A program made the translations under genes and the position numbers. The notes under the pieces are model-generated. The model did not search any database and was not told where the DNA came from. It saw only the letters and a program-made list of their open reading frames with translations. From a virus: a DNA stretch of 33,832 nucleotides. Of the stretch, positions 1 to 11,857 are shown piece after piece (position 1 is the first letter of the stretch; each line of letters begins with the position of its first letter). The stretch spans positions 1-33,832 of IMG/VR virus record IMGVR_UViG_3300030333_004111; one strand, written 5' to 3'.

Positions 1-95
1 CTTAGTTCTTTTGCTAATCTATCTACTGTTATACGACTGGGCTTTCTTGTATATTCTTCTACAATATACGATGTTTGCTCTGAGGTATAGTTCAT
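1..95 (-). CDS. Helix-turn-helix-like phage protein, third paralogue (cut by left edge)
   Basis: Only the first 31 residues are inside the window; they begin MNYTSEQTSYIVEEY and continue with a region reading RITVDRLAKEL. The pattern (Y-T near the start, then a helix, then 'R-x-T-V/A-x-x-L-A-x-E') matches the starts of the two complete small proteins at 2329-2667 and 6139-6432, so I read it as a third member of one family. Such proteins in phages look like small DNA-binding helix-turn-helix proteins, but that is inference. The ATG overlaps the stop of the upstream gene by ATGA, which indicates translational coupling. The rest of the gene lies off the window. Confidence 0.6.
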   Translation of the reverse strand, partial: MNYTSEQTSYIVEEYTRKPSRITVDRLAKEL

Positions 96-322
96 TCAAG
101 GCCGCTCCAATGGTTGTTGGATTTAAATTGCCCACTAATTACTTCTAGCTTATCTTGGGCTTCCGCAATAATTTCGATTTGGGACTCTATTGCTGCTAGG
201 ATTTCTGGATGTTCTCCAATCCCAGCGGGGTTTTCTAAATATACGCTTACATTGGCTTTGGCAATAGCAATCTCGCCCTCTAACTTCTTTTGTAAGGCAT
301 CTATTAAGTATAGGTGTTTCAA
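92..322 (-). CDS. Small hypothetical protein, predicted helical
   Basis: This 76-residue acidic protein has no motif I can assign. It is almost entirely alpha-helix-forming: an Ala/Ile/Glu-rich N-terminal helix, a short PAGIGEHP turn near residue 35, then a second long helix with heptad-like Ile/Ala spacing, so a helical hairpin or coiled coil is likely. It lies one base beyond the stop of the 324-647 gene and overlaps the start of the next gene by ATGA, so all three form one leftward operon driven from the promoter at 670-698. Function unknown. Confidence 0.7.
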   Translation of the reverse strand: MKHLYLIDALQKKLEGEIAIAKANVSVYLENPAGIGEHPEILAAIESQIEIIAEAQDKLEVISGQFKSNNHWSGLE

Positions 323-323
323 G

Positions 324-647
324 TTACGCTCCTTCTGGCATTTCAGGTGGTTCGAAAGATATAGTTATCTTTCCGGTGGTAGGGTCTTTCTCGATGCCAA
401 CATAGGTACAGTACTCTAACCATTCCGCTGTTATATTCTCGCTACCTATAATACTAGCATAGAGCTTCATAAGCTCTTGATAACAGTCCTCTACTGACAT
501 GGTTTGCTCTTGCAACATCTGTTGCCCTAGCTCCACTTTTCTCATAGCATCGTATAGTTCTTGTAGAGTGTTTTGCATTGTAGAAAGTTCTTTTTCTACT
601 TCTACTTGCTTTCTTCTGCGATCAGGAAACTGAATTACATTTGACAT
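324..647 (-). CDS. Hypothetical protein with coiled-coil N-terminal half
   Basis: I start this 107-residue protein at the ATG preceded by a strong AAGGAG Shine-Dalgarno, giving MSNVIQFPDRRRKQ; a longer in-frame extension upstream would run through the promoter's -10 region and is rejected. After a basic N-terminus (RRRKQ) comes a Glu/Gln/Leu-rich stretch of about 60 residues that should form a coiled coil, then a mixed C-terminal segment ending in a Pro-rich acidic tail. No enzymatic motif is visible. It is the first gene of a three-gene leftward operon with a consensus sigma70 promoter 20 bp upstream. Function unknown. Confidence 0.75.
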   Translation of the reverse strand: MSNVIQFPDRRRKQVEVEKELSTMQNTLQELYDAMRKVELGQQMLQEQTMSVEDCYQELMKLYASIIGSENITAEWLEYCTYVGIEKDPTTGKITISFEPPEMPEGA

Positions 648-669
648 AGTTTTCTCCTTAATACTGTAT

Positions 670-698
670 ATTATACAAGACATAGCAAAAAATGTCAA
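670..698 (-). promoter_or_regulatory. Sigma70 promoter for the 647-1 operon
   Basis: On the minus strand: TTGACA (698-693), 17 bp spacer, TATAAT (675-670), a perfect consensus match. It lies between the terminator of the large RNA and the start of the 324-647 gene. Confidence 0.9.
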
Positions 699-718
699 GA
701 AAAATTTTCTGAAGGTAT

Positions 719-754
719 AAAAAAATCCCCTAAGGCCGAAGCCCTAGGGGATTT
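719..754 (-). terminator. Intrinsic terminator of the large structured RNA
   Basis: On the minus strand the sequence folds into a GC-rich stem of about 14 bp capped by a UUCG tetraloop (loop at 740-737) and is followed by seven U residues. This is a textbook rho-independent terminator for leftward transcription, ending the transcript that starts near 1278. Confidence 0.93.
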
Positions 755-1278
755 GCATTAGACAGAGTACTCCTTGATGGGTCTTATCTCACGATAAGCA
801 AGTCGGATTCCCAATTTTAAGCTGTGGCTCCAGGTTATCTGGATTTGGCTTTTTAAAATCTCAACAACTCCGTCGGTATACTATTACTTCTTTTTGGGTT
901 AGCCGTCGGCGAATAGTATACTGTCTAATTACTCCTTTTAACATTAAGTGAGCAAGCACCTCCTTCTTTATCCCTTGCTCGATGAGAGACTCACAAGACT
1001 AGTCTGGACCTCTCCCCTGCTCAGTAACGTGGGGTAATGGTACTGAGTGTAAGTTTGCCGTTCCTAGGAATTGATACCAATTTAACGAACGGGAGTATTT
1101 AACGATGATACTCAAACGATTCCAACACTTTTTTAGAGTACAACTCTTGGAACAAGAACCCTAACTCCCCTCATTTTCAGGTTAGAGGTGAGGGAATCAC
1201 CCGAGATCCGCTATAGCAGCATCTCCTTAACTAGGGCACTTGAACGCGTATTCTCTATGCTCTAGCCCCGATTTCTTA
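719..1278 (-). ncRNA. Large (~560 nt) highly structured non-coding RNA of unknown class
   Basis: The segment has a consensus promoter (1314-1285), a strong terminator (754-719) and no credible reading frame, but many helices. Seen directly (plus coordinates of the two strands): 876-885 with 912-921 (10 bp); 923-929 with 757-763 (7 bp, long-range, closing a 3' domain); 814-820 with 853-859 (7 bp); 783-788 with 793-798, a 6 bp hairpin closed by a GUGA (GNRA) tetraloop; 950-956 with 974-980 (7 bp); 1020-1026 with 1041-1047 (7 bp); 1120-1125 with 1147-1152 enclosing a small hairpin; 1203-1207 with 1221-1225. Its size, density of structure, phage setting and closeness to a tRNA gene resemble the ornate large RNA classes GOLLD and ROOL, known from phages and often beside tRNA genes. 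Membership is inference; I recognise no diagnostic sequence. It is not RNase P RNA. Confidence 0.8.
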
Positions 1279-1284
1279 ACATAT

Positions 1285-1314
1285 ATTATACTTGATTTAA
1301 GCATTAAAAGTCAA
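1285..1314 (-). promoter_or_regulatory. Sigma70 promoter of the large structured RNA
   Basis: On the minus strand: TTGACT (1314-1309), 18 bp spacer, TATAAT (1290-1285). Transcription should start near 1278. It sits 37 bp downstream of the tRNA-Trp gene, so the large RNA is a transcription unit separate from the tRNA operon. Confidence 0.85.
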
Positions 1315-1350
1315 GAATTATTTTTTGTAATGCCTAAAAAATTTAACTTT

Positions 1351-1425
1351 TGGCAGGGCACCACGGATTCGAACCGCGACCGCAAGGATTTGGAGTCCTG
1401 CATCATACCATTAGAACAATGCCCT
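1351..1425 (-). tRNA. tRNA-Trp (anticodon CCA)
   Basis: Read on the minus strand the sequence folds as a complete 72-nt tRNA plus encoded CCA. The acceptor stem pairs AGGGCAT with GTGCCCT (one U-G pair), the discriminator is G, the T loop is TTCGAAT, and the anticodon loop is CTCCAAA, giving anticodon CCA for UGG (Trp). CCA is encoded at 1353-1351. It starts 11 bp after the stop codon of the small basic gene 1436-1585 and is probably processed from the same transcript as the tmRNA. Confidence 0.95.
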
Positions 1426-1435
1426 AGAACCTCTA

Positions 1436-1585
1436 CTACCTTCCCTGTCCTTTATACTTTTTATAGTTAGCTTTCTTACTCTTATTCATAGAAGAAAACT
1501 TAACCCTAGCAGGCTTCCCGCTACTACTGGACTTCTTAGGGGCTTTTGGTTCCCAAGCTCTTCCTAGTGTCACTCTTTTAGCCAT
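1436..1585 (-). CDS. Small very basic protein (49 aa)
   Basis: This 49-residue frame begins MAKRVTLGRAWEPK and is rich in Lys, Arg and Ser, ending NYKKYKGQGR. Its start is supported by GGAGG nine bases upstream and by an 8 bp overlap with the end of the 1578-1778 gene, so translation is likely coupled. The product is about one third Lys/Arg with no hydrophobic core, which suggests nucleic-acid binding. It recalls the basic proteins of the right arm (11570-12419) in composition though not in sequence. Its stop codon lies 11 bp before the mature tRNA-Trp. Function unknown. Confidence 0.65.
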   Translation of the reverse strand: MAKRVTLGRAWEPKAPKKSSSSGKPARVKFSSMNKSKKANYKKYKGQGR

Positions 1586-1778
1586 TCTTCATAACCTCCA
1601 TACATAGATAAAAAGTGCGTTCGTATAGACCACTATTTCCTTGAGATTCATGGAAAGCGTACTTTTGGCACTCTTTTTGCATATCAATCTCAATAGGCTC
1701 TTCTCCTATATTACCGCTTAATGGTATAAATAGGCAAAATACTACTAAAGGTATTCCAACAATTACTTTCATTTTCAT
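1578..1778 (-). CDS. Small exported or membrane-anchored protein
   Basis: I choose the internal ATG at 1778 (MKMKVIVGIPLVVFCL...) because an AAGGGA ribosome-binding site lies just upstream and because the longer frame would run into the tmRNA region. The 66-residue product starts with two Lys and a hydrophobic stretch of about 17 residues, a signal peptide or anchor, followed by a short hydrophilic domain with two Cys (in QKECQK and YLCMEV) that could form a disulfide outside the cytoplasm. It lies between the tmRNA and the basic gene 1436-1585. No family recognised. Confidence 0.6.
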   Translation of the reverse strand: MKMKVIVGIPLVVFCLFIPLSGNIGEEPIEIDMQKECQKYAFHESQGNSGLYERTFYLCMEVMKNG

Positions 1779-1894
1779 ACTCTTCCCTTGTAAGGTGGGG
1801 CTGCGGCTGGGCACCAGTTTTACCGCGATCTTTACTGCCTTATCCCACTATCTAACTAGGAGCTACCTAGCAATATTGAGTCCCTGGCTTCCCC

Positions 1895-2312
1895 GTAAAC
1901 TTTATTTAAGTGCTGTCCCCAAGCCATAAGGATGAAGGGTTGCTTTTAGGAGGCTTGTATTTATCCCCCAGCACTTAAATAAGGTGGCTCTCCTTTGGAT
2001 AACAAGGCGAGAGCCTCTCCCCGCTAGCTTATGCAGCTAGTTGATAAACGTCGTCGTTTGCGTTTATATTTAGGTTTTGCACTGTAACGGGTGCTCCCGA
2101 TTCTCCACTAACCTCTGATCCCTTGTCGAAACCTGACTCCCCCATCAGAAACATACTAGCTGGGACTTAGAGTTCTTTGTCATGCCCATGAACCTCGGCT
2201 TCTCCATTCTAAGATGAATCCGCGACACTATGTCTAACGTGCAGCTGACCTTGGTTACTAGTATGCTTTTGGTGGAGGAGGGGGGAATCGAACCCCCGTC
2301 CACTGAACCGTA
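1895..2312 (-). ncRNA. ssrA: Circularly permuted two-piece tmRNA (transfer-messenger RNA)
   Basis: tmRNA rescues stalled ribosomes: its tRNA-like part enters an empty A site and its message part adds a degradation tag. Order on the minus strand is permuted. First the acceptor piece: strand 2305-2309 for helix 2, T arm with TTCGATT loop (2297-2281), 3' acceptor strand CTCCTCC (2280-2274), discriminator A and encoded CCA (2272-2270). Next an intervening segment (2269-2144). Then the coding piece: 5' acceptor strand GGGGGAG (2143-2137), which pairs fully with CTCCTCC, the tmRNA-typical TTTCGAC, a small pseudoknot-like element, and the tag frame at 2061-2029. After the tag come hairpins including GGCTCTC/GAGAGCC and a 14 bp helix (1902-1915 with 1969-1982). 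The order is that of alphaproteobacterial ssrA, giving two RNAs after the loop is removed. Outer ends are approximate; the coding piece may reach about 1810. Confidence 0.9.
2029..2061 (-). other. tmRNA proteolysis-tag reading frame, ANDDVYQLAA
   Basis: From the resume codon GCA the frame reads ANDDVYQLAA followed by TAA. It has the usual tag layout: an Ala-Asn-Asp start (SspB/ClpA-type contact region) and a hydrophobic Leu-Ala-Ala end, the ClpXP signal. With the Ala carried on the tRNA part, the tag added to stalled proteins would be 11 residues. Confidence 0.92.
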
Positions 2313-2328
2313 CTTTAGCTTCATCGAA

Positions 2329-2667
2329 TTAGCTGAGTACAGTTACTCCCAACACTTTCTCTTTAAGGATGAGAAGGTCAATCTTTGAAGCTTTAGCAAG
2401 CGTAGGCATTTCAGTACCTAGTGCAGCTTCGATTTGATTAACAATGTCAGCCTTGCGAATGATGGGGGCACCTGTCTTAGTCATACGTGCCTGTGCTTTG
2501 TAGATGCCCATGCTGGACAACTTAGCAATTACGCTTCTTACTGGCTTGTCAAACTCTTCTGCCAGCTCTTCCGCAGTAGCGCGAGTTGGGTTTGCAGAGT
2601 AAACTTGCTCCATTCGCTCTACCATGTCGTCGGTGTAGTTCTTTGCTACGTCAACGTCTTTAGTCAT
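2329..2667 (-). CDS. Helix-turn-helix-like phage protein, paralogue
   Basis: The start chosen (MTKDVDVAKNYTDDMVERM) has a CGGGAGA Shine-Dalgarno seven bases upstream, giving 112 residues; another ATG at 2706 lies right at the promoter's expected start point and would add 13 residues as a leaderless product. The central part (AEELAEEFDKPVRSVIAKLSSMG) looks like a helix-turn-helix, and the C-terminal half has Lys-rich segments ending KIDLLILKEKVLGV. The protein at 6139-6432 shares the same plan (YT-x-MV, RSVI-x-K-x-x-S-x-G, then a helical tail), so the two are paralogues, likely DNA-binding regulators. The gene is directly upstream of the tmRNA acceptor piece, whose helix 2 begins about 20 bp after its stop, and the two are probably co-transcribed. 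Confidence 0.75.
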   Translation of the reverse strand: MTKDVDVAKNYTDDMVERMEQVYSANPTRATAEELAEEFDKPVRSVIAKLSSMGIYKAQARMTKTGAPIIRKADIVNQIEAALGTEMPTLAKASKIDLLILKEKVLGVTVLS

Positions 2668-2712
2668 AAAAAATCTCCCGAAAAATAAGTTGTTTATCCA
2701 ATTCATATGTAT

Positions 2713-2741
2713 ATTATAGTGGTTTCAGTTTGTAATGTCAA
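2713..2741 (-). promoter_or_regulatory. Sigma70 promoter for the HTH paralogue, tmRNA and tRNA operon
   Basis: On the minus strand: TTGACA (2741-2736), 17 bp, TATAAT (2718-2713), a perfect match. The -35 box overlaps the last codons (Leu-Asp-Ile) of the 2725-3168 gene. No terminator is evident before tRNA-Trp, so this promoter may drive 2667 to 1351. Confidence 0.9.
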
Positions 2742-3168
2742 GAACTTTTTTTGGTCTTGCTGCAATCGCTTCAATTCGATCGCTCCCATAATACAGGTAA
2801 TGATTCAAGAAAGCACATTCATAGCCTCGTGCTTCACATTCCCATGGGGAAAACCAATATTCGCCCAACCACTTTGATCCTTTCCAAAAATTTCCATCTT
2901 CTGACAGGTCAAGATCATCTAATTCGTATTGCTTTACATGAACCATTTCATGCGCTGTGATACATATTATATCACTTTCTGTCGCAGTACGCAAGAACTT
3001 TTTATCAAATTCAATAACATATGAACCTATACATTCCTGCCCTACTTCAGCTTGATGCCCTCCACCGAGTTTTCCTACTGCTATCTCCACATCTACGTCT
3101 AGGTCAAAATAACCTGCGACTAGCTGTATCACATCCTCGATTAAATTTAGGCGTTTCTTCATTTTCAT
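2725..3168 (-). CDS. Putative zinc metallopeptidase (HExxH)
   Basis: The 147-residue protein contains HEMVH at residues 73-77 inside a hydrophobic helix (IICITAHEMVHVKQY), the zinc-binding and catalytic motif of gluzincin and SprT-like metallopeptidases. A candidate third ligand is one of the Glu residues in PWECEARGYE (residues 108-117). Small HExxH proteins are common in phage early regions and could act on host proteins; the substrate is unknown. It has its own consensus promoter, and the ATG lies only about 7 bases after the -10 box, so the message would be leaderless or nearly so; ATG codon 3 is an alternative start. The 3' end overlaps the next promoter. Confidence 0.75.
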   Translation of the reverse strand: MKMKKRLNLIEDVIQLVAGYFDLDVDVEIAVGKLGGGHQAEVGQECIGSYVIEFDKKFLRTATESDIICITAHEMVHVKQYELDDLDLSEDGNFWKGSKWLGEYWFSPWECEARGYECAFLNHYLYYGSDRIEAIAARPKKVLDITN

Positions 3169-3175
3169 AATGTAT

Positions 3176-3204
3176 ATTATACTTGATTATGCAAATGATG
3201 TCAA
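3176..3204 (-). promoter_or_regulatory. Sigma70 promoter for the metallopeptidase gene
   Basis: On the minus strand: TTGACA (3204-3199), 17 bp, TATAAT (3181-3176). The ATG at 3168 falls at the predicted start point. The -35 box overlaps the stop codon of the 3201-3359 gene. Confidence 0.88.
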
Positions 3205-3359
3205 GAGGTTTTTGCCTGCTTTAGTCTATCAATTAGCCATGCAATATCTTCCGCAGGCTCTTCCATAACCATAATAGCCGCAATAGCTTGTGCAGATGAC
3301 ATCCCATCTTGCATCATGCCTCCGTGCATTATTAGTAACTCGAATTGATTTTCTGTCAT
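3201..3359 (-). CDS. Small hypothetical acidic protein (52 aa)
   Basis: The ATG at 3359 (MTENQFELLIMHGGMMQDG...) is preceded by CGGGAGA and lies behind a perfect promoter; the longer upstream extension would run through that promoter and is rejected. The product has an N-terminal amphipathic helix, a Met/Gly/Ala-rich middle (MSSAQAIAAIMVMEEPAED) and a C-terminal helix ending in KQAKTS. The MSSAQAIAAI stretch resembles a short helix-loop-helix found in small phage proteins but gives no function. Confidence 0.65.
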   Translation of the reverse strand: MTENQFELLIMHGGMMQDGMSSAQAIAAIMVMEEPAEDIAWLIDRLKQAKTS

Positions 3360-3383
3360 GCTATTCTCCCGATTTATGTACAT

Positions 3384-3412
3384 ATTATATTCGCTCCGGC
3401 ATTTAATGTCAA
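3384..3412 (-). promoter_or_regulatory. Sigma70 promoter for the 3201-3359 gene
   Basis: On the minus strand: TTGACA (3412-3407), 17 bp, TATAAT (3389-3384). Perfect consensus. Confidence 0.9.
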
Positions 3413-3578
3413 GAAGTTTTTTCGTTAAGGTCAACGCACCCCAATTCCGGGGGGCCGCGTGCGGGGTTTGCAAGTCAAGTTTTATTTTCACGAATTGTCT
3501 AAAATTTTCTAAGATTTACGCACCCGTACCAAGACCTGCACGGGTTTGAATTAATTTGGCCAATCGTGCAAATAAAGC

Positions 3579-3607
3579 TTGACATGCGCACCCGTTGCGC
3601 GTATAAT
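3579..3607 (+). promoter_or_regulatory. Array promoter 1 (rightward sigma70)
   Basis: TTGACA (3579-3584), 17 bp, TATAAT (3602-3607), perfect consensus. The spacer contains GCGCA...TGCGC, an inverted repeat that could be an operator. Confidence 0.85.
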
Positions 3608-3660
3608 GGCGCGGGGAGACTTGTGGTTTGATTTAATTTGGCCAATGGTGAAAATAACAC

Positions 3661-3689
3661 TTGACATTGCATCGCTTTGGCACTATAAT
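3661..3689 (+). promoter_or_regulatory. Array promoter 2 (rightward sigma70)
   Basis: TTGACA (3661-3666), 17 bp, TATAAT (3684-3689), perfect consensus; 82 bp after promoter 1. Confidence 0.85.
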
Positions 3690-3785
3690 CGGCGCGGGGC
3701 ACTTTACTTTGATTTAGCACTTGCACTTTGGCGCCAGGAGACTTGCGCCTTTTGATTTAATTTACTGCACACCCGCAAAAAAGAC

Positions 3786-3814
3786 TTGACTTTCTTAGCA
3801 CTTGCACTTAAAAT
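3786..3814 (+). promoter_or_regulatory. Array promoter 3 (rightward sigma70)
   Basis: TTGACT (3786-3791), 17 bp, TAAAAT (3809-3814), one mismatch in each box; 125 bp after promoter 2, with the defective unit between them. Confidence 0.75.
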
Positions 3815-3854
3815 GGCGCAGGGGGCATTTAGGGTAGATACTTCACTTTGCCAC

Positions 3855-3906
3855 TGGCGCCCGCGCGCCAAAATTTTCAAGCGACGCGCTTTTGGGTGGG
3901 TTTTTT
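3855..3906 (+). terminator. Possible terminator of the array transcripts
   Basis: Two hairpins follow the array: TGGCGC-CCGC-GCGCCA (3855-3870) followed by AAATTTT, and AAGCG-ACG-CGCTT followed by a GT-rich stretch and six T (3901-3906). Neither is an ideal intrinsic terminator. If active, array RNAs would be roughly 50-280 nt; if not, they run antisense into the leftward operon. Confidence 0.35.
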
Positions 3907-3914
3907 CCGGAGAG

Positions 3915-3930
3915 TGTTTCACGTGGAACG
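3915..3930. other. parS: parS-like centromere site
   Basis: TGTTTCACGTGGAACG matches the chromosomal parS consensus (TGTTTCACGTGAAACA and its GTTCCACGTGGAAC variants). The 14 bp core GTTTCACGTGGAAC is a near-perfect palindrome around CACGTG. ParB proteins bind such sites and spread. No parA or parB gene is visible here, so a partner would be elsewhere in the phage genome or be the host ParB. Confidence 0.75.
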
Positions 3931-3937
3931 CGGCCCA

Positions 3938-4105
3938 TTATGAGCCGCTCAAAATTTCGTATCGCTTGCCGTTTGGAGCAACCAAAATATCGCCGGTCCG
4001 AAATTCAAAGCCGGCTTGTCTAGCGCGAGCCGTAGCCGCATCGCCAGAGCCAGCCTCTACAACAAAGCGCTCGCCTGATTTTGTGATAATTGTGTATTCG
4101 TTCAT
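3938..4105 (-). CDS. Small hypothetical beta-rich protein (55 aa)
   Basis: The start MNEYTIITKSGERF follows an AGAGG site and a consensus promoter; longer frames would cross the promoter. The product alternates short beta strands and turns (YTIITKSGERFVVEA, FRTGDILVAPNGKRYEIL), with an Ala/Arg-rich helix in the middle (GDAATARARQAG). The fold could be a small nucleic-acid-binding or SH3-like barrel, but nothing in it is diagnostic. It is monocistronic, and its stop codon lies 8 bp from the parS-like site, so it could be linked to that locus. Base composition is richer in GCGC words than the genes to its left. Confidence 0.65.
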   Translation of the reverse strand: MNEYTIITKSGERFVVEAGSGDAATARARQAGFEFRTGDILVAPNGKRYEILSGS

Positions 4106-4132
4106 TTTTATAACCTCTGATTTAATAAAGCC

Positions 4133-4162
4133 ATTATAAGCCGCGCGCGGGCAAATTGTCAA
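4133..4162 (-). promoter_or_regulatory. Sigma70 promoter for the 3938-4105 gene
   Basis: On the minus strand: TTGACA (4162-4157), 18 bp spacer containing GCGCGC, TATAAT (4138-4133). Confidence 0.85.
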
Positions 4163-4201
4163 GCATTTATTTTACCTATTTTTGGCGCCGCCAAACGAGA
4201 A

Positions 4202-4849
4202 TTATTCTCGTTTGGATTCGAGGCGGTCGCAGAGCCTACGGATTAGCTCAAGCCGTCCCACGCCTTTTTGGTTGTAGTCGATAACGTCCCAACCGCCGCG
4301 AGAAATTACGCGCTCTTTAAGCAGAGTCATTTCGTCATAGTATGAAAGCGCGCGCTCGTCATTTGGCGATAGCTTCCAATATTTTAGAGGCGAAATTCTG
4401 CGCTCCTCAATTCGTCGCGCTTGCTCATCTTCAGAAATCGAGAGCCAGAATTTAATAAACCGAGTGCCGAATCTAACAGTCTGGTTTATCTCCCATGATT
4501 CAACGTCTCGCATAAAATTGCGATATTGCAAATCAGAGCACCAGCCGTTGATTTTCTGAACCAATGCGCGAGAATACCAAGAGCGATCATAGAACACGAT
4601 TCCGCTGTCTGGCATTTTCTTCGTCCAGTAACCAAGCCAATTTTCCATGGTGGATTTGCTAGGCTTAGTCGATAGAACAACCGAGAAAAGCCGAGGCGGT
4701 AGGTATTGAGTTAATGCGCGAATAGTGCCAGATTTTCCAGCCGTGTCGCGCCCCTCTAAAACAACCGCGACAGGCTCGGTTAGAGCCTCCGCGATTTCGT
4801 TTAGTCGCGCTTGCTCGCGCTCCATTTCGTTTAGTTTAAGATCAGCCAT
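4202..4849 (-). CDS. ppk2: PPK2-family polyphosphate kinase
   Basis: PPK2 enzymes move phosphate between polyphosphate and nucleotides, usually making NTP from NDP (or NDP from NMP) at the expense of polyphosphate. With the GGAGG-supported start at 4849 the protein has 215 residues. The whole family core is present: Walker A loop EGRDTAGKSGT (residues 32-42), Walker B and lid-base motif YDRSWYSRA (87-95), FIKFWLSIS (131-139), the Arg-rich lid RRIEERR (145-151) and PLKYWKLSP (154-162). It is somewhat shorter than typical bacterial PPK2 (230-300), losing mainly terminal parts. It is the last gene of a leftward operon and overlaps a tiny membrane-protein gene. Donor direction and nucleotide preference cannot be read from sequence. 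In a phage it may supply NTPs or dNDPs from host polyphosphate, matching the phosphate transporter at 7391-8329. Confidence 0.88.
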   Translation of the reverse strand: MADLKLNEMEREQARLNEIAEALTEPVAVVLEGRDTAGKSGTIRALTQYLPPRLFSVVLSTKPSKSTMENWLGYWTKKMPDSGIVFYDRSWYSRALVQKINGWCSDLQYRNFMRDVESWEINQTVRFGTRFIKFWLSISEDEQARRIEERRISPLKYWKLSPNDERALSYYDEMTLLKERVISRGGWDVIDYNQKGVGRLELIRRLCDRLESKRE

Positions 4850-4935
4850 ATAATGCCTCCGATTACAATTAGATCCGCGCAAATGGAATAAACCATATAA
4901 ACGCGGAATAAGATTTTAGCTAGTTTTTTTGACAT
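4831..4935 (-). CDS. Tiny single-pass membrane protein (34 aa)
   Basis: A 34-residue frame begins MSKKLAKILFRVYMVYS and ends in a hydrophobic run (LIVIGGIIWLIL). The basic N-terminus followed by about 20 apolar residues gives one transmembrane helix with its N-terminus inside. A GAGGAA site lies 8 bases upstream. It fills the gap between the 4916-5488 gene (overlapping its end by 20 bp) and ppk2 (overlapping its start by 19 bp), which fits the tight packing of this operon. It is small enough to be chance, so moderate confidence. Confidence 0.5.
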   Translation of the reverse strand: MSKKLAKILFRVYMVYSICADLIVIGGIIWLILN

Positions 4936-5488
4936 AATTTGGTTCCTCATTTTTTCCTAGTGGAGTCGGACACCCATGAATCCCATTTTCGCGCTTTTGG
5001 GTTACGATGTCAAGCCCTAAATCAAGATTTTTTTGCCGCCATGAATTAGCGAATCTTGAAGCCGCCTGAATTTTAGTCATATTGTAAAATTCAGAAGAGC
5101 CGCCGACAGGCTTTTCGCCCTTGGTTCTCAAATCTTGAAATAAGCCAGTAACGCGAAAAGGCTTATTCCGAGAATGAAAAAATTGTTCAGCCGATAAAGT
5201 TTTATCGAACGTGCCAAGTTTAGCAAAGTGAAGCCGCCCGATTAGAACGCCCCTATCTAGCGAAAATGAACGCTCCATATCCGCGAGCGTGTTAATGATG
5301 CGAGATTGAACGCCATTAAAGCCGCCCGAATAACATTCTTTCGCAAAGCCGTCCTTAAAAATCTGCATCCCAACAAATGCGGGGACGTAATCGCCAAGGT
5401 TAAGCAATTCCCAAAGATAGTTATATCCTAGATCGGCATAGGGTGAGCCGTTTGAAGTTTCTGGTTTTGAGTTAGATGTAATTTCCAT
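4916..5488 (-). CDS. Hypothetical protein (190 aa)
   Basis: I do not recognise this soluble 190-residue protein. It opens with a polar Asn/Ser/Glu-rich tail, then has aromatic-rich segments (YNYLWELLNLGDYVPAFVG, FFHSRNKPFRVTGLF) and a Lys/Asn-rich C-terminus ending YVKKTS. No signal peptide, membrane segment or Walker motif is visible. Its stop is followed by the tiny membrane gene, and its start overlaps the stop of the HAD gene by one base (ATG/TAA sharing A), so it is co-translated within the PPK2 operon. Confidence 0.7.
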   Translation of the reverse strand: MEITSNSKPETSNGSPYADLGYNYLWELLNLGDYVPAFVGMQIFKDGFAKECYSGGFNGVQSRIINTLADMERSFSLDRGVLIGRLHFAKLGTFDKTLSAEQFFHSRNKPFRVTGLFQDLRTKGEKPVGGSSEFYNMTKIQAASRFANSWRQKNLDLGLDIVTQKRENGIHGCPTPLGKNEEPNYVKKTS

Positions 5489-5955
5489 TAGGCGATTGCC
5501 TCCATATAGTTATTGTAGGATTCGGGAGCGACAACGCGAACCCGATTTTTTCTTAGCGTTTCTTGAACGTCTAAATCGTCATCAAAAAGAATAGTATTCT
5601 TGGTGAAAGTATCCCATTCGATTCCATTAGTGCGAGCCAATAAAAGCAATTCGGCAAGTTTGAATTGGCCGCATGGCAAATTGTTATGCTTAGATCGTGA
5701 CATAATCAGCCGAGGCGTTAAGCCGTGATGATCTAAGAAAGCGTAATCGATAGCGGAAAGAACGCGCGAAGTTAAAATTCCGCAATCCAAACCCTCTGCC
5801 ATTGCGTTCCGCAATACGTTAGCATACGGGAGCAAAGTATCAGCCCAAATATTTTTGGCCGTGTTCATTCGCTTCCAATCGTCTAGCGTTTCGCCTTGGC
5901 GGTGTGTCGAGTCGATGCAAGTGCCATCGAGATCAAATAAGAAGAGATGTCGCAT
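5488..5955 (-). CDS. HAD-superfamily phosphatase
   Basis: The 155-residue protein has the four HAD motifs in order: FDLDGT at residues 7-12 (Asp8 nucleophile, Asp10 acid/base), LTSR at 61-64 (motif II), Lys99 in FKLAELL (motif III) and FDDDLDV at 124-130 (motif IV Asp pair). There is little cap insertion, as in the small phosphatases of phages, including the 3'-phosphatase half of T4-type polynucleotide kinase. There is no P-loop, so it is a stand-alone phosphatase. The substrate (nucleic-acid 3'-phosphate, nucleotide or other) cannot be told. It overlaps the upstream small membrane gene by 23 bp. Confidence 0.8.
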   Translation of the reverse strand: MRHLFLFDLDGTCIDSTHRQGETLDDWKRMNTAKNIWADTLLPYANVLRNAMAEGLDCGILTSRVLSAIDYAFLDHHGLTPRLIMSRSKHNNLPCGQFKLAELLLLARTNGIEWDTFTKNTILFDDDLDVQETLRKNRVRVVAPESYNNYMEAIA

Positions 5956-6133
5956 AACCGATGATTCCTATAGTGTTTAAGATGATAAGATTATAGCATT
6001 GTTTGTGCCACGCTTGCAAGCATAATAATGCCAGCCCTAGCATAGCCATAACCTTGCCGATGTTCGTGTCGATTAGGAAAGGAGCCGCGCATAATAGCGC
6101 GGTTCCAGTCCAAGCGATTAGAGCCGAGAGCAT
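5933..6133 (-). CDS. Small multi-pass membrane protein (66 aa)
   Basis: Nearly all of this 66-residue protein is hydrophobic: three membrane segments at about residues 3-20, 26-42 and 47-65, separated by short loops (LIDTNIGK; WHKQCYN). It could be a small transporter-like or modulator protein, or a holin, but no family is recognised. It lies 5 bp after the stop of the HTH paralogue and overlaps the HAD gene, inside the PPK2 operon. Confidence 0.65.
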   Translation of the reverse strand: MLSALIAWTGTALLCAAPFLIDTNIGKVMAMLGLALLCLQAWHKQCYNLIILNTIGIIGYATSLLI

Positions 6134-6138
6134 AGGGG

Positions 6139-6432
6139 TTACCCTATGTTCTCAAGAACAGAGCAAAGCTCTGCTTTGGTGAGGTCACCCTCACGCTCTG
6201 GCAAAGCCAACGCTTTGCGAATCGCTCCAAGGTATTCAGCCTTGGTAGGATCAACGCGCTTAGAAGCCGCGCGCTTAGGTTGCGCGATGTATTCTAAGCC
6301 AAGGCTTTTCGCCTTAGAGATAACCGAGCGATGGCTCAAGCCAAAGTCAGCCGCAAATTCCTTAGCCTTAGCAAGGTTAAGGGGTTGAGCCGCGCCCAAT
6401 TTCGCGACCATTTCGGGAGTATAATTAGACAT
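6139..6432 (-). CDS. Helix-turn-helix-like phage protein, paralogue
   Basis: This 97-residue basic protein begins MSNYTPEMVAKLG and contains AKEFAADFGLSHRSVISKAKSLG (residues 24-46), a helix-turn-helix-like stretch that aligns with the 2329-2667 protein (YT-x-MV ... RSVI-K-S-G) and with the partial gene at the left edge. The C-terminal half (KAEYLGAIRKALALPEREGDLTKAELCSVLENIG) matches the paralogue's tail in layout. AGGAGA lies 5-10 bases before the ATG. A perfect 10 bp inverted repeat in its leader (6453-6477) is a candidate operator, which would fit self-regulation. Codon use is GC-richer than in the other two paralogues, as in the rest of its operon. Confidence 0.75.
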   Translation of the reverse strand: MSNYTPEMVAKLGAAQPLNLAKAKEFAADFGLSHRSVISKAKSLGLEYIAQPKRAASKRVDPTKAEYLGAIRKALALPEREGDLTKAELCSVLENIG

Positions 6433-6452
6433 AAAAGTCTCCTAAAGTTAAG

Positions 6453-6477
6453 AATTAATCGACCCATTCGATTAATT
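6453..6477. promoter_or_regulatory. Candidate operator: 10 bp inverted repeat
   Basis: AATTAATCGA, 5 bp, TCGATTAATT: a perfect palindrome located between the promoter and the ribosome-binding site of the HTH gene. In RNA it could also form a hairpin just upstream of the Shine-Dalgarno. Confidence 0.6.
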
Positions 6478-6486
6478 TATAAAGCC

Positions 6487-6515
6487 ATTCTCTCATAAAA
6501 AACGCAAAAAGTCAA
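6487..6515 (-). promoter_or_regulatory. Likely promoter of the HTH-to-PPK2 operon
   Basis: On the minus strand: TTGACT (6515-6510), 17 bp, GAGAAT (6492-6487; 4 of 6). Weaker than the other promoters, perhaps needing activation. Confidence 0.55.
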
Positions 6516-6541
6516 GCATTTTTTTATACCGATTTGTCATA

Positions 6542-6742
6542 TCAAGCCGCCTTCATATAACCAAAAATCGCCGCGCCAAATGCAATCATTCCGTTGGCAA
6601 TTAGACAGCCGCCGAAAATTTTGCCGCCTATAGGCGAGGCCATAGTAGCCGACGCTTCCCAAGCTAACAAGCCGGTGAACGTAAACGCCACGCCTACCGA
6701 GATCAAAAAGATTCCGATGGTGATATTGATAATCATTCTCAT
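6542..6742 (-). CDS. Small two-pass membrane protein (66 aa)
   Basis: The 66-residue product has two hydrophobic segments, about residues 3-24 and 42-62, joined by a polar loop (EASATMASPIGGK). It starts MRMIINITIGIF and ends GYMKAA. No family is recognised; the layout fits a holin-like or superinfection-type membrane protein but also many others. It is the first leftward gene after the divergent control region, with a weak promoter 40-65 bp upstream and an ATG preceded by no strong ribosome-binding site. Confidence 0.6.
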   Translation of the reverse strand: MRMIINITIGIFLISVGVAFTFTGLLAWEASATMASPIGGKIFGGCLIANGMIAFGAAIFGYMKAA

Positions 6743-6778
6743 TTAGCCGTACCCTCGAGTATCGATTGACAAGCCCCT

Positions 6779-6807
6779 AGTATGGGGGAAGCCGCCCCGA
6801 AAGTCAA
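6779..6807 (-). promoter_or_regulatory. Possible promoter for the 6542-6742 gene
   Basis: On the minus strand: TTGACT (6807-6802), 17 bp, CATACT (6784-6779; 4 of 6). A TTGACA at 6766-6771 faces it on the plus strand, so the two -35-like boxes form an imperfect inverted repeat. Confidence 0.4.
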
Positions 6808-6875
6808 GCCCCAATCATGGAGATATAATGGAAAGAAAAATAAAATAAAAAATCCTTATAGATCAAGGAGTTACG

Positions 6876-6940
6876 GCGGGGCCTGCCTGTATGGGGGCGG
6901 TTCTTTGACTTGACGCCCGCCCGCCTCGCGGGCGACCCCC
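6876..6940. other. GC-rich structured block in the divergent control region
   Basis: Within an otherwise AT-rich gap (6743-7088) lies a GC-rich block: a perfect hairpin GCCCGC-CTC-GCGGGC (6919-6933), flanked by GGGGG (6893-6897) and CCCCC (6936-6940) that can pair outside it. No U tract follows, so it is not an intrinsic terminator. It could be a protein-binding site or a transcript-end structure. No gene is seen in the gap. Confidence 0.45.
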
Positions 6941-7030
6941 ACATGTACGACTTTGGGTATTTTTTAAACTAATCTTTACAAAAATTTAACAAAATTTTAA
7001 CACTATCTTCATCAAATTGTAATATTTTTA

Positions 7031-7039
7031 TGATATAAT
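7031..7039 (+). promoter_or_regulatory. Extended -10 promoter for the rightward arm
   Basis: TGATATAAT at 7031-7039 is an extended -10 element (TGnTATAAT) without a good -35 but with A/T tracts upstream (AAAATTTAACAAAATTTTAA). Transcription would start near 7046 and give a leader of about 43 nt before the AAGGAG of the first rightward gene. Confidence 0.6.
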
Positions 7040-7088
7040 ATACCAGAAATCAATGGAGATTTCAAGAAGTATTTTAAGGAGAGCTTAA

Positions 7089-7400
7089 ATGAAAGCAATA
7101 TTTGCCCTATTCTTTCTTTTATTGTCAGGCGCATGCGCCTCAGCAGATCCGTACATAGAGTACAAAAATGAGTTGAAGTATAGAGATACCGACTTCAGAG
7201 ACGACATCCATCACTTTAGACTTGGGTATAACTTCGAAAAATTTTATTTTGAAGGAGGCCCCCGCTCTGATGGCTACGCTACTGAGGTAGGGTATAAGAT
7301 TAAACAAGGCCCACTCACGTTTAAAGGCAAATGGGAAGGATCAAAAACTGAAGATTTCGATCATAAGTTGGAGACCGAGATTAGATACACATGGAACTAA
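7089..7400 (+). CDS. Exported small beta-rich protein, possible outer-membrane barrel
   Basis: The 103-residue protein starts with a clear signal peptide (MKAIFALFFLLLSGACASA, cleavage after ASA near residue 19). The remaining 84 residues alternate polar and aromatic residues as beta strands (YIEYKNELKYRD, HHFRLGYNFEKFYFEGG, EVGYKIKQGPLTFKGKWEG, KLETEIRYTWN), ending in an aromatic residue plus Asn, like small outer-membrane barrels or periplasmic beta proteins. AAGGAG precedes the ATG. It overlaps the transporter gene by 10 bp, so the two are coupled: it may be a partner of the transporter (for example an envelope-side helper) or a surface-modifying protein. Confidence 0.7.
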   Translation: MKAIFALFFLLLSGACASADPYIEYKNELKYRDTDFRDDIHHFRLGYNFEKFYFEGGPRSDGYATEVGYKIKQGPLTFKGKWEGSKTEDFDHKLETEIRYTWN

Positions 7401-8329
7401 TATGGATGACGATAGGCTTCTTCCTAGCGTCATACGCTGTAATCGCAAATGATTCAGTACAAACATTAGGAACATGGATAGCTTCTAATAAAGAACGTTT
7501 TGATTGGAGAATAATGTGGGGCGCAGCTTCGGCTGTCCTCCTATGGGCCATTTGGTATGGTTGGACAGTATACGGAGGGGATATCTCGTATGGGAGATTA
7601 ACAAGAATCCCGTATGTAGAAGTCCAATGGTACCATGCTTTAGCTCCGGGAATACTTCTTATACTTACAAGATTTGGTATACCCGTATCAACTTCCTTTT
7701 TAGTACTAAGTGCTTTTGCAAGTACTTTCGTACTCGAGAAGATGTTGCTAAAGAGCGTGGCAGGATACGCGATTGCGGCCGTAGCCGCATACGTCATATG
7801 GTGTGCAATCACACGATACTTCGATGAAACCAAAAAAGTTCCCGAAAACCAAGAAGGTTTTTGGAGAACAACACAATGGATAGTTACAGGCTTCCTATGG
7901 TGGACTTGGTTGTCGCATGATATGGCGAATATGGCAGTTTTTCTTCCACGAGAAATACCTTGGGAAGTAATGATTGGCATTTCTACGCTATTTGTATCAG
8001 GACTAGGCTGGATGTTTTACGAACAAGGAGGTAAAATTCAGCAAATTGTTCTGTCAAAGCAAAATACGCGCTATGTACGAAGTGCAACTTTGATTGATTT
8101 AGTATATTTAGCTATATTATTCTTCTTTAAAGAGTACAATAACATACCTATGTCTACAACTTGGGTGTTTATTGGTCTTTTATCAGGAAGAGAGCTAGCT
8201 CATGCTACTTTTTCTAACAAGGTTCAATTTAAAGGAGTATTTCCTATCGTGGCAAGAGACTTCTTTAAGTTAATGGTAGGTGTTGCTGCATCTATTGGGA
8301 TAATAATTTCAATCCATACGCTTTCTTAG
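7391..8329 (+). CDS. PiT-family inorganic phosphate transporter
   Basis: The PiT (PHO-4, PF01384) family imports phosphate by cation symport across the inner membrane. This 312-residue protein has 8-9 membrane segments and the two inverted family signatures: ANDSVQTLGT at residues 19-28 and, in the second half near residues 172-182, WLSHDMANMAV; each half also has its Ser/Thr-rich helix motif (GIPVSTSFLVLSAFAS and NNIPMSTTWVFIGLLSG). It is shorter than E. coli PitA (about 500) because the central cytoplasmic loop is missing, as in compact bacterial members. It is coupled to the upstream exported beta protein and followed by a terminator, so the pair forms a separate transcription unit before the packaging genes. 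Sulfate transport is a less likely alternative. It would raise phosphate uptake during infection. Confidence 0.82.
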   Translation: MELIWMTIGFFLASYAVIANDSVQTLGTWIASNKERFDWRIMWGAASAVLLWAIWYGWTVYGGDISYGRLTRIPYVEVQWYHALAPGILLILTRFGIPVSTSFLVLSAFASTFVLEKMLLKSVAGYAIAAVAAYVIWCAITRYFDETKKVPENQEGFWRTTQWIVTGFLWWTWLSHDMANMAVFLPREIPWEVMIGISTLFVSGLGWMFYEQGGKIQQIVLSKQNTRYVRSATLIDLVYLAILFFFKEYNNIPMSTTWVFIGLLSGRELAHATFSNKVQFKGVFPIVARDFFKLMVGVAASIGIIISIHTLS

Positions 8330-8337
8330 CTTTTTTC

Positions 8338-8368
8338 AATGCTGCTAGCTCCGGTTAGCAGCATTTTT
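8338..8368 (+). terminator. Intrinsic terminator after the phosphate transporter
   Basis: ATGCTGCTA ... TTAGCAGCAT stem with a 7-nt loop followed by TTTTT. Rightward. Confidence 0.9.
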
Positions 8369-8391
8369 CCTACCCCTCCCAAAAACAGTTC

Positions 8392-8420
8392 TTGACTTTA
8401 CACCCTTGTTAAAGTATAAT
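8392..8420 (+). promoter_or_regulatory. Sigma70 promoter for the packaging/structural operon
   Basis: TTGACT (8392-8397), 17 bp, TATAAT (8415-8420). The ATG of the next gene at 8428 coincides with the expected start point, so the first message would be leaderless. Confidence 0.88.
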
Positions 8421-8427
8421 TTCTCTC

Positions 8428-8889
8428 ATGGCTAAAGAAGTGACTACAATTTCTCCAGAAGGACTGGAAATAGCAAACTCGTACCTTACTTTCGGAAATA
8501 TTCGAGGAGTTGTCGAGCATCTTGGCGTTAATGAAAATGCAGTAGTGGAAATCCTAAATAAACGAGAGGTCAAGAGATACATTGATACTGTCTATTTGGA
8601 TATGGGCTATCGTAATAAGAATAACATTGCTTCCGTATTGGATAATATGATACAAACCAAACTAGAAGAAGCAGAAGAAACTGGAGTTTACTCTAACAAA
8701 GATTTAGCAGACTTATTACAAATGGCTCATAAGATGAGAATGGACGAGATTAAAGCACAATCAGATCTCGAAAAAGCTCATACAGCCAATATTAGAAGTC
8801 AGACTAATGTACAAATTAATGAAGGTGTACCTTTCGGCCAGGGCAACTACGGTAAGCTCATGGAAAAGTTGATGAAGGATGTCGAATAA
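8428..8889 (+). CDS. terS: Terminase small subunit (putative)
   Basis: Small terminases bind the packaging site and load the large subunit. This 153-residue protein has an N-terminal helix-turn-helix-like region (residues 8-50: GLEIANSYLTFGNIRGVVEHLGVNENAVVEIL), a central helical region, and a long Lys/Glu/Gln-rich helix (KMRMDEIKAQSDLEKAHTAN) as in the oligomerisation part of the family. The C-terminal GKLMEKLMKDVE is typical of the TerL-contact tail. It is the first gene of the rightward structural operon, although TerL follows only after eleven small genes, an unusual separation. The ATG lies 7 bases after the -10 box, without a Shine-Dalgarno. Confidence 0.75.
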   Translation: MAKEVTTISPEGLEIANSYLTFGNIRGVVEHLGVNENAVVEILNKREVKRYIDTVYLDMGYRNKNNIASVLDNMIQTKLEEAEETGVYSNKDLADLLQMAHKMRMDEIKAQSDLEKAHTANIRSQTNVQINEGVPFGQGNYGKLMEKLMKDVE

Positions 8890-9082
8890 AAGTGTTGACG
8901 ATGTTGCTAACGAATTATCTCGTCATGAGGTCCAATGCGAAGAAAGATGGAAAACTACCTTCAATCGATTGGATGATATTGACAGAAAATTAGATGAAAT
9001 GTTTAAACGCCAGCTCCAAATCGGAGGCGGTGTAATAGTATTTTTGGCTGGGTTAGTTGTAACCCTAGCTCTTAATAGCTAA
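8879..9082 (+). CDS. Small coiled-coil plus transmembrane protein (XhlA-like)
   Basis: The 67-residue protein has a charged N-terminal half with heptad-like spacing (EERWKTTFNRLDDIDRKLDEMFKR), followed by a C-terminal membrane helix (GGGVIVFLAGLVVTLAL). This layout matches XhlA/holin-accessory proteins of phages, which anchor at the membrane and help lysis. It overlaps the end of the small terminase gene by 11 bp. Assignment rests on architecture only; it could also be an unrelated membrane-tethered coiled coil. Confidence 0.6.
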   Translation: MSNKSVDDVANELSRHEVQCEERWKTTFNRLDDIDRKLDEMFKRQLQIGGGVIVFLAGLVVTLALNS

Positions 9083-9083
9083 A

Positions 9084-9785
9084 ATGAAACGATGGTTACT
9101 TCTTCTTTTATTATTAGTTCCAGCCTCTGCTCTTGCAGAGTACCCGGATATTGATAATATTGAGATTCCGGACATTAGTTCAGAAGAAGACAATAATTCA
9201 GGAGATAACCAAAGCGGAGATCAGGAGGGTAGCCTAAATACCAATAACCAGAATAGTACTGTAAATAGTAATAACAGGACAAATACTAACTCAAAAACAT
9301 ATAACGGGGCTGGAAGTTCTGGTATGCCGCCATATTCAGCGATCTCCCCAACCTTTATGAGTACAGGACCTGAGACCTGTCTTCAAGGAGGAAGTCAAGC
9401 ACTACAAAGTAGTGTGGTAGGGCTAAGCAGAGGGGCCTATAAAGAAGACCCTAACTGTAATAGACGAAGAGATGCAAAAGTTCTTAGTGATCTAGGAATG
9501 AAAGTGGCAGCAGTTGCTAGAATGTGTCAAGAGGTTGAAGTTTGGAGAGCAATGTTTATTTCCGGCACCCCTTGTCCAGTTCTACAAAGCGGTAAGTTAG
9601 TTGTAGGAAAGCGAGCTTACTTAGCTTTGAAGCTAAATCCCACTGTTCATATCCCCGATTACAAAGACAATAAAGACTGGTACGATAAAATACTAGGATT
9701 AGGAGAAAATGAAGGTGAAGAAGCTGATAATAACGGCGATGATAGCCGGTCTCTTTCTGATAAGTACAGAACCAGCAAACGCTGA
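9084..9785 (+). CDS. Exported Asn/Ser-rich protein
   Basis: The 233-residue product begins with a classical signal peptide (MKRWLLLLLLLVPASALA, cleavage after ALA), followed by an acidic, low-complexity Asn/Ser/Asp/Gln-rich linker (about residues 35-75), then a folded region with four Cys (ETCLQGG, DPNCNRR, RMCQEV, TPCPVL), probably disulfide-bonded in the periplasm. The C-terminal tail is acidic and its last 25 codons overlap the signal-peptide codons of the next gene. No family recognised. It may act at the cell envelope or be part of the virion. Confidence 0.65.
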   Translation: MKRWLLLLLLLVPASALAEYPDIDNIEIPDISSEEDNNSGDNQSGDQEGSLNTNNQNSTVNSNNRTNTNSKTYNGAGSSGMPPYSAISPTFMSTGPETCLQGGSQALQSSVVGLSRGAYKEDPNCNRRRDAKVLSDLGMKVAAVARMCQEVEVWRAMFISGTPCPVLQSGKLVVGKRAYLALKLNPTVHIPDYKDNKDWYDKILGLGENEGEEADNNGDDSRSLSDKYRTSKR

Positions 9786-10572
9786 CCCTCTTGACGACCT
9801 AGTTACTACTAGTGGCGATATTGTTGGACAGCTTAATTTAGCTATACTAACTGTTGCAGGACAAGGAGCTAATGCTGCAGATGGATACGTTTCTCCTACT
9901 GGAATGGCGTCCGATGCTCATATTTCTCAAGCCCAGGTTCAAGCATATAATAATGCAATTAGTGTAGTAGCCGGTGCTTCTTTTTATGGAGCACAAGAAT
10001 TTTTACAGGAACAAGGCGATGATGCTTTGGACCAAATGGAACTGGCCGTTGGTGACTTTGTAGACGCTGCAACAGAGATAGCTACAATTCTTGAGATAGC
10101 TGAAATGGCAGAAGAAGCTCAGTCCTCTGGCACAGCAGAAGACGCACAAGAAGTGGCGGAGTTTGTAGAACAGAACGAAACTACCCTAACACTACAACAG
10201 GATACTGTTGACGAGTATAATGACTCTCTTGACGAAATCGAAGAATACGCTCAAGAGGCAGCAGCCTATATAGGGTTAGCAAATAACCAGGATGCAGTTG
10301 ATTTTTTCGATACAGGAGCTGATAACAATAATGCCAGCTTCGTGGATGAAGCAGTAGCTTCTTTCGATATAAGTAATAATAGAATAGTAGTACAGTGGCA
10401 AACTACAAATAATGGTAGTGCCGTATATTTCGATGGCACAGATGGACTAAATATAGACTTATTTAAAACTAGTGCTCAAATTTTAACAGACGGAGAGTCA
10501 GAATTGTTTTATTTAACTAGCCCTACTTATCTAGGGTATGATTGTTTCTTCAATCAACAGAATTGTGAATAA
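9709..10572 (+). CDS. Exported acidic helical protein
   Basis: AGGAG lies close to the ATG. The first 25 residues (MKVKKLIITAMIAGLFLIS..., cleavage near ANA) form a signal peptide. The mature part is rich in Ala/Glu/Gln/Asp and largely helical (for instance EIATILEIAEMAEEAQ, VDEYNDSLDEIEEYAQEAAAYIG), then a beta-rich end with two Cys (YDCFFNQQNC) that may pair. The gene's first 77 bp overlap the previous gene in another frame. No family is recognised; as a neighbour of another exported protein it may be a periplasmic or envelope factor. Confidence 0.65.
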   Translation: MKVKKLIITAMIAGLFLISTEPANADPLDDLVTTSGDIVGQLNLAILTVAGQGANAADGYVSPTGMASDAHISQAQVQAYNNAISVVAGASFYGAQEFLQEQGDDALDQMELAVGDFVDAATEIATILEIAEMAEEAQSSGTAEDAQEVAEFVEQNETTLTLQQDTVDEYNDSLDEIEEYAQEAAAYIGLANNQDAVDFFDTGADNNNASFVDEAVASFDISNNRIVVQWQTTNNGSAVYFDGTDGLNIDLFKTSAQILTDGESELFYLTSPTYLGYDCFFNQQNCE

Positions 10573-11069
10573 TGTCATTAGAAGATACTGAAATAAATGT
10601 TGGTGGAGTTAAGTTCAAAGGAATCTACTTAGCTGTAGTTTTTGGCTTCGTAACTACTATTTCAGGAGCTATTTGGACAGCAAGTGAGTTGTACAGCAGA
10701 TTAGAGGCAGTCGAAGCATACGACATTCCTGATACCACTGAATTACACGAACAGGTAGAGTTAATTAAACAAGAGTTAGAGGACCAAAATATTAGTGAGT
10801 TACAAGGTAAGCTAACAGAGCTAGGAGTTAATCTAACTACTATTATTGACCAACAAAAAGAGTTGCTCTTAATTAAAGAAAGAGTCGTTCAAGCAGAAAA
10901 AGACGTAGAGTCTATGAGAACGACCGTGCAGGAGGCTAAGCTAGTAGTCAAGCAAGTAGAAGACTTTGATAGTTTTTTGAAAACTTTTGATCCAAAGTTC
11001 AAAACCTTAGACAGGGAAGTTAATGATATTTGGGAGGCTTTGGACGAAGTAGCTAATCCTTTGAACTAG
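10572..11069 (+). CDS. Membrane-anchored coiled-coil protein
   Basis: The 165-residue protein has a short polar start, one membrane helix at about residues 18-40 (IYLAVVFGFVTTISGAIWTAS), then about 100 residues of heptad-rich coiled coil (LHEQVELIKQELEDQN ... VVQAEKDVESMRTTVQ) that would project from the membrane. ATG overlaps the previous stop (TAATG). The architecture resembles an inner-membrane spanin (i-spanin) or another envelope-bridging lysis protein, but no lipoprotein partner is seen. Function inferred from layout only. Confidence 0.6.
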   Translation: MSLEDTEINVGGVKFKGIYLAVVFGFVTTISGAIWTASELYSRLEAVEAYDIPDTTELHEQVELIKQELEDQNISELQGKLTELGVNLTTIIDQQKELLLIKERVVQAEKDVESMRTTVQEAKLVVKQVEDFDSFLKTFDPKFKTLDREVNDIWEALDEVANPLN

Positions 11070-11077
11070 GAACTTAA

Positions 11078-11302
11078 TTGAATGAACTGATAATGGCGTT
11101 TGTTTTAATTACAACCGTTGAAGGCACTAAATTAGAGGACGAGTTTTATTTCAGGAATGTACACCGATGCAATCAATTCGCACATTGGATTGAACATGGA
11201 TCAACATTTCCTGATAATAGAAGGTGGGTGGATAGGCAGCTAAATATTAGCGCATATTGTATACCACGAAGACTTCCTAGAACGAGTAAGTTCTGGGATT
11301 AG
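11078..11302 (+). CDS. Small hypothetical protein (74 aa, TTG start likely)
   Basis: The TTG at 11078 has AGGAA five bases upstream, while the in-frame ATG at 11093 has none, so I favour TTG; the shorter form would have 69 residues. The protein is a mixed beta/alpha globule with two Cys (RCNQF and YCIPRR) and Trp-rich segments, and ends RTSKFWD. No recognised motif. It belongs to the run of tiny genes between the exported proteins and TerL. Confidence 0.55.
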   Translation: MNELIMAFVLITTVEGTKLEDEFYFRNVHRCNQFAHWIEHGSTFPDNRRWVDRQLNISAYCIPRRLPRTSKFWD

Positions 11303-11311
11303 GAGATAGAA

Positions 11312-11413: not shown

Positions 11414-11416
11414 ATT

Positions 11417-11566: not shown

Positions 11567-11569
11567 CTT

Positions 11570-11752: not shown

Positions 11753-11756
11753 AACT

Positions 11757-11846: not shown

Positions 11847-11857
11847 GGGAGAAAATA

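Follow-up and report, generated by a model that had tools for sequence, protein, structure and literature searches.

The minus strand from position 1278 to ~718 of the window, the 33,832-nucleotide stretch of viral DNA analysed here, is a stand-alone transcription unit, and its product almost certainly represents a real and new structured RNA family. The large structured RNA (718 to 1278, minus strand) is ~560 nt in length, with ends inferred from its promoter and terminator, and was characterized using covariance models and covariation. The sigma70-type promoter, TTGACT-18-TATAAT, is located at 1285 to 1314 (minus strand) and scores 11/12; similar promoters precede the RNA in syntenic relatives. 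At the intrinsic terminator (717 to 754, minus strand), a 14-bp stem (754-723) precedes a T-run. The unit contains no ORF of at least 60 aa on its minus strand, and when the longest frames of 16 homologous RNAs are compared, they are not common to the whole family. The earlier note on this DNA had described a unit of ~560 nt with its own promoter and terminator and without a reading frame, and it was correct on each of these points. The single-sequence fold of the window RNA is modestly better than that of shuffled sequences (z = −1.98). A fold energy of this size alone would not settle the structure and was therefore not taken as proof; the homologues settle it.

The RNA is found in a phage beside tRNA-Trp, as the earlier note had stated. 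The gene for tRNA-Trp (cca; 1351 to 1425, minus strand) is upstream of the RNA on the same strand, as is the permuted two-piece tmRNA (1938 to 2366, minus strand), which carries the tag ANDDVYQLAA; the tags of relatives are slightly different. The syntenic downstream neighbour is the FP ORF (MSNVIQFP...; 324 to 647, minus strand), which has its own 12/12 promoter at 698-670. The order shared among relatives is tmRNA/tRNA, promoter, RNA, terminator, and FP gene, with the FP gene immediately downstream of the RNA or one small gene further. A low-confidence prediction for the FP protein gives one long helix and two short strands and no functional clue. The phage terminase is nearest to those of T5-like phages (~49%). 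The window also encodes a polyphosphate kinase 2 at 4202-4882 on the minus strand (PPK2, E 9e-46). In L114, an abiF RNA match (3180-3211; 45.4 bits, above the gathering score) appears just downstream of two tRNAs, and the large-RNA promoter of that phage is ~200-300 bases further on.

Protein-guided scans provided four contigs with the order tmRNA, promoter, and structured region, three of which continue to the terminator and the FP gene or its promoter. The motifs X (GGGAAGYC...GATAAGRCAGTAAAG) and Y (AAATTGNTANYRATTNCTA) were read from these four contigs and subsequently used for searching. With both motifs, an FP-protein scan, and a 3′-domain pattern, the number of related records from T5-like phage contigs rose above 40, and most of them share the locus; these records contain near-duplicates, and some subtypes are tied to the window only by X, the promoter, and position. 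The related RNAs range from ~285 to 654 nt. The closest relatives, which share the Y-Z-W part, are L183, L184, L185, L200, L211, L213, L214, L216 (cut within Y), and L218.

Covariance models R1 (Y-Z) and R2 (W) were built from the relatives alone, with the window excluded. A single match to each model was obtained in the 33.8-kb window, in both cases where it was expected, at 947-1092 for R1 (48.5 bits, E = 2.1e-11) and at 758-938 for R2 (46.3 bits, E = 4.2e-10). Model R1 additionally matches L083, L086, L088, L096, L104, L171, and L175 and does not reach the L187 or L090 types. In the subtype comprising L187, L189, L191, L195-L197, L199, L201, L202, L204-L206, and L208-L210, X comes first and is followed by a different middle; RNAs of the L187 type end, by eye, in similar three-hairpin and GGAGG-rich elements. 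Nucleotide searches of annotated phages with the RNA, and with positions 1-12000 of the window, returned no useful match and no cultured relative.

In the window RNA, a 5′ part that evolves fast is followed by a conserved Y-Z-W part with at least nine helices. The 5′ domain (1093 to 1278, minus strand) is variable among relatives and, in the window RNA, has no close relative; its own helices include 1203-1225 and 1093-1113, and covariation does not support them. A candidate H-type pseudoknot in this domain (1159-1194, minus strand), combining the stems CCCUCA/UGAGGG and CUCUAAC/GUUAGGG, was read from the sequence, and the comparison gives it no support. The conserved part begins with the Y hairpin (1058 to 1092, minus strand), in which the stem CCGUUC/GAACGG surrounds the conserved core AAAUUGGUAUCAAUUCCUAG; the Y-Z model and covariation (helices 1 and 2) identify this element. 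Three hairpins follow on the minus strand: Z1 (1020 to 1047), with a conserved ACCCCAC in the loop and covariation at 6/6 pairs of helix 3; Z2 (984 to 1014), with a conserved (C)UUGUGA and covariation in helix 4; and Z3 (950 to 980), with the purine loop GGAUAAAGAAGGAGGUG and covariation in helix 6. The Z3 loop of the window contains the Shine-Dalgarno-like sequence AAGGAGGUG at 957-965.

The 3′ domain, W, is enclosed by a long-range helix formed by the 5′ strand UUAGACAG (921 to 928, minus strand; W covariation helix 1) and the 3′ strand CUGUCUAA (758 to 765, minus strand), which also covaries within W. This helix is CAGUCG/CGACUG in most relatives, whereas it is UUAGACAG/CUGUCUAA in the window. 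Within the domain, the W1 hairpin UAUACUAUU/AAUAGUAUA (876 to 920, minus strand) varies in size and sequence among relatives. The conserved core CGACGGAGUUGUUG (862 to 875, minus strand) pairs through its AGU with the ACU of the downstream GAGUACUC (W helices 2 and 3). The small hairpin UCCAG-AUAAC-CUGGA (829 to 843, minus strand) is found inside an insertion of variable length. The W helix CUUG/CAAG (773 to 803, minus strand; W covariation helices 4 and 5) is stacked on the GUGA-capped hairpin CUUAUC-GUGA-GAUAAG (783-798, minus strand), where GUGA is constant and the stem changes in relatives. The earlier note had proposed a long-range helix pairing 923-929 with 757-763 and a GNRA-capped hairpin; the former is found as 921-928 with 758-765 and the latter at 783-798, and both are accompanied by compensatory changes in relatives.

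The earlier note had proposed a covariation test among homologues, and the helices of the family covary above the shuffled and slid controls. In the alignment of Y-Z (17 sequences), 93% of the cells pair, and both sides change at 23/33 pairs. The covariation score is 0.609, compared with 0.185 for shuffled alignments and at most 0.093 when the partners are slid by 1-3 columns. For the W 3′ domain, 94% of the cells pair, two-sided changes are found at 13/25 pairs, and the score is 0.354 versus 0.178 shuffled; the covarying set includes the long-range helix and the GUGA-capped hairpin. The pair counts rest on model-guided alignments because MAFFT, used by itself, places the window wrongly in several helices, and the Y-Z and W alignments, being fitted to the models, lean towards the structure. 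An unfitted MAFFT alignment of the relatives displays the same kind of pair changes. Four helices covary in the X domain (24 sequences), arranged around single strands that are strongly conserved; 10/15 pairs covary, and the score is 0.554 versus 0.170 shuffled.

The X domain of ~100 nt was located in the window at 1792 to 1899 (minus strand) by a model built without the window (76 bits, E 8.8e-20). It sits between the tmRNA and tRNA-Trp, just downstream of the tmRNA. Exactly one X is present in 20/20 records with lengths up to 101 kb, and its position differs among the phages. X is at or near the 5′ end of the RNA in L083, L086, L088, L090, L096, L183, L185, L200, L211, and the L187 type. The RNA starts without X, and X follows the tmRNA, in five phages (the window, L184, L213, L214, and L218). 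In L171, X precedes tRNA-Cys. The Y hairpin is located before X in L091 and L099/L103, and a Y-like hairpin is found by eye before X in L092/L098. At 18/37 X loci, a Y hairpin appears within 1.3 kb of X on the same strand, in both the X-Y and Y-X orders; elsewhere in 380 kb, no Y hairpin was found on either strand. X was detected in 3/20 of the TerL relatives checked, one of these being a weak match at a non-RNA site, and most of these relatives are short fragments. Bacterial genomes were scanned once with the X pattern, with six matches that look like chance; the only one that was read (L221) falls at the end of a coding region.

We interpret X and the large RNA, from their arrangement in these sequences, as one functional RNA with parts that have been permuted and split. 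A two-piece architectural RNA, in which X moves among the RNA 5′ end, the tmRNA flank, and a permuted site that follows Y, and combines with the large RNA in trans, is a tentative reading that is somewhat against the odds. Action of X in trans is suggested by its position, and a transcript reading through from the tmRNA into the RNA would leave X in cis. In the window, X is followed directly by a gene (1578-1780, minus strand) for a small protein that contains cysteine and is probably located in the membrane, and a similar small protein follows X directly in L099/L103/L106. Since a small-protein gene directly follows it there, X may also act as a leader.

Many other phages that appear unrelated also carry the Y hairpin by itself, either at terminators or between genes. 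The consensus of the lone hairpin is [stem]-RCGWAAAUUG.UANYRAUU.CUAWGR-[stem], in which the two pairs closing the 8-nt loop covary. Examples are L109:2009-2030, L113:1789-1810, L126:1397-1418, L136:3129-3150(-), L142:3467-3488, and L138:1134-1155. This hairpin is absent from Rfam and has the appearance of a small RNA motif that is widespread in phages.

The earlier note had left it undecided whether the RNA belongs to GOLLD, to ROOL, or to a new class. Rfam scans at gathering and permissive thresholds gave no family on the RNA, X, or Y. Within 719-1278 only subthreshold matches appear, mostly on the terminator hairpin; neither RNase P, which the note had also raised, nor tmRNA nor another ordinary RNA is matched there. 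Ideas of an RNase P RNA and of a group I intron, based on short word matches, were dropped in the absence of a model match. No large-RNA family was reported at 600-2450 with E up to 5. The GOLLD (RF02032) model gave one 5-bit chance match on 11 family records, located elsewhere in the window. The ROOL (RF03087) model gave no match on the same 11 records, though control genomes gave no match either, and ROOL was also absent from whole-Rfam scans with Rfam's own cmscan. As far as sequence allows, the RNA is a separate family from both. A previous description of this RNA was not found in the literature, within a search limited to open-licence PubMed Central papers.

The RNA resembles known large RNAs in several respects. 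GOLLD and ROOL are phage RNAs found near tRNA islands that form cages, and GOLLD has a conserved 3′ part and a variable 5′ part (PMC12286853). The window RNA is likewise a large structured phage ncRNA near tRNA genes with a conserved 3′ and a variable 5′ part; it differs from GOLLD in the lack of a covariance match, in having different helices, and in its relocatable X domain. ROOL is a similarly large and ornate phage or prophage RNA near tRNA islands, about 600 nt in length, and the new family differs from it in giving no match to the ROOL model. The resemblance in habit to GOLLD and ROOL is real, but membership is not. OLE, HEARO, IMES, and other large bacterial RNAs are comparable in size and complexity; OLE, HEARO, and, provided that the library includes it, IMES are set apart only by the Rfam scan of 600-2450. 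A glnA glutamine riboswitch has been reported in the tmRNA 3′ domain of the marine phage Melnitz (PMC9004378); like X in the window, it is structured and adjoins the two-piece tmRNA of a phage, in the same place. X is a different element with its own conserved core and covarying helices, and no glnA match was obtained in the Rfam scan of the window and relatives.

Several other explanations were weighed against these results. GOLLD assembles into a 14-mer cage, and the window RNA could be an RNA-only homo-oligomer or nanocage that shares a function with GOLLD and ROOL and is unrelated to them in sequence. The shared habit (large, ornate, phage-encoded, beside tRNAs, with a variable 5′ and a conserved 3′ part; PMC12286853) favours such an assembly, and the conserved exposed loops, ACCCCAC and the purine loop of Z3, could serve as kissing sites. 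No consistent or fixed partner for the Z3 loop was found within the RNA. The missing covariance match to either family counts against a cage, as does the spread in length among relatives, which is hard to reconcile with a fixed one, and this explanation is considered unlikely. The Z3 loop might instead offer its Shine-Dalgarno-like sequence to 16S rRNA while X cooperates with the tmRNA, so that the RNA would bind or sequester ribosomes. AGGAGG is found in 10/16 Z3 loops (read by eye), with AAGGAGGUG in the window, X directly follows the tmRNA in the five phages whose RNA is without X, and the locus is a tmRNA-tRNA cluster. The Z3 loops of other members carry AGGCGG, AGGUUGG, AGGUGG, or AGGCAGG, so complementarity to the anti-Shine-Dalgarno sequence is not strictly kept, and we regard this role in translation as a rather improbable one.

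The location of the RNA directly upstream of the FP gene, or one small gene away, would fit a long 5′ leader or riboswitch of that gene, and X, which precedes a small ORF in some phages, has a size and conservation resembling those of a ligand-binding aptamer. The RNA is ended by a strong terminator, however, the FP gene is served by a promoter of its own in an arrangement that is repeated in relatives, and X can be missing from the RNA; a leader is thus very improbable. Even less credit is given to a CsrA-type sponge with many GGA sites: the window RNA contains 14 GGA, near the expectation of 9.5, and several relatives are at or below expectation.

We therefore return to a phage-encoded, stand-alone ncRNA of a new family as the preferred explanation. 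It would be transcribed from a host-type promoter and stopped at its own terminator, and its conserved part comprises the Y hairpin, the hairpins Z1 to Z3, and the 3′ domain, which the long-range helix closes and which contains the GNRA-capped hairpin. X either forms the 5′ end of the RNA or, as in the window, would be produced by the adjacent tmRNA-tRNA unit and would then need to act in trans. Most likely the product, synthesized during infection, would serve as an architectural RNA, either by itself or together with protein, and would have a connection to the tmRNA/tRNA cluster. Expression of the RNA during infection is expected, and by analogy a scaffold role may be assigned to it. The statement as a whole, combining a new stand-alone family, X in the same functional RNA, and an architectural role like that of GOLLD and ROOL, is considered moderately probable.

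To our knowledge, only a handful of RNA classes with such size and complexity are found in phages. Two of them, GOLLD and ROOL, have been imaged and were seen to form RNA-only cages whose purpose is unknown. An unrelated RNA class at a locus conserved among relatives provides an independent case for the comparison of large ornate phage RNAs. With its single-copy, relocatable X, the family allows one to test directly whether two transcripts can build a large RNA, and its position beside the tmRNA and tRNAs opens a link with translation to testing. If true, the two-piece RNA would be a phage ncRNA that has undergone fission and permutation, as in the two-piece tmRNA, and that is physically linked to trans-translation.
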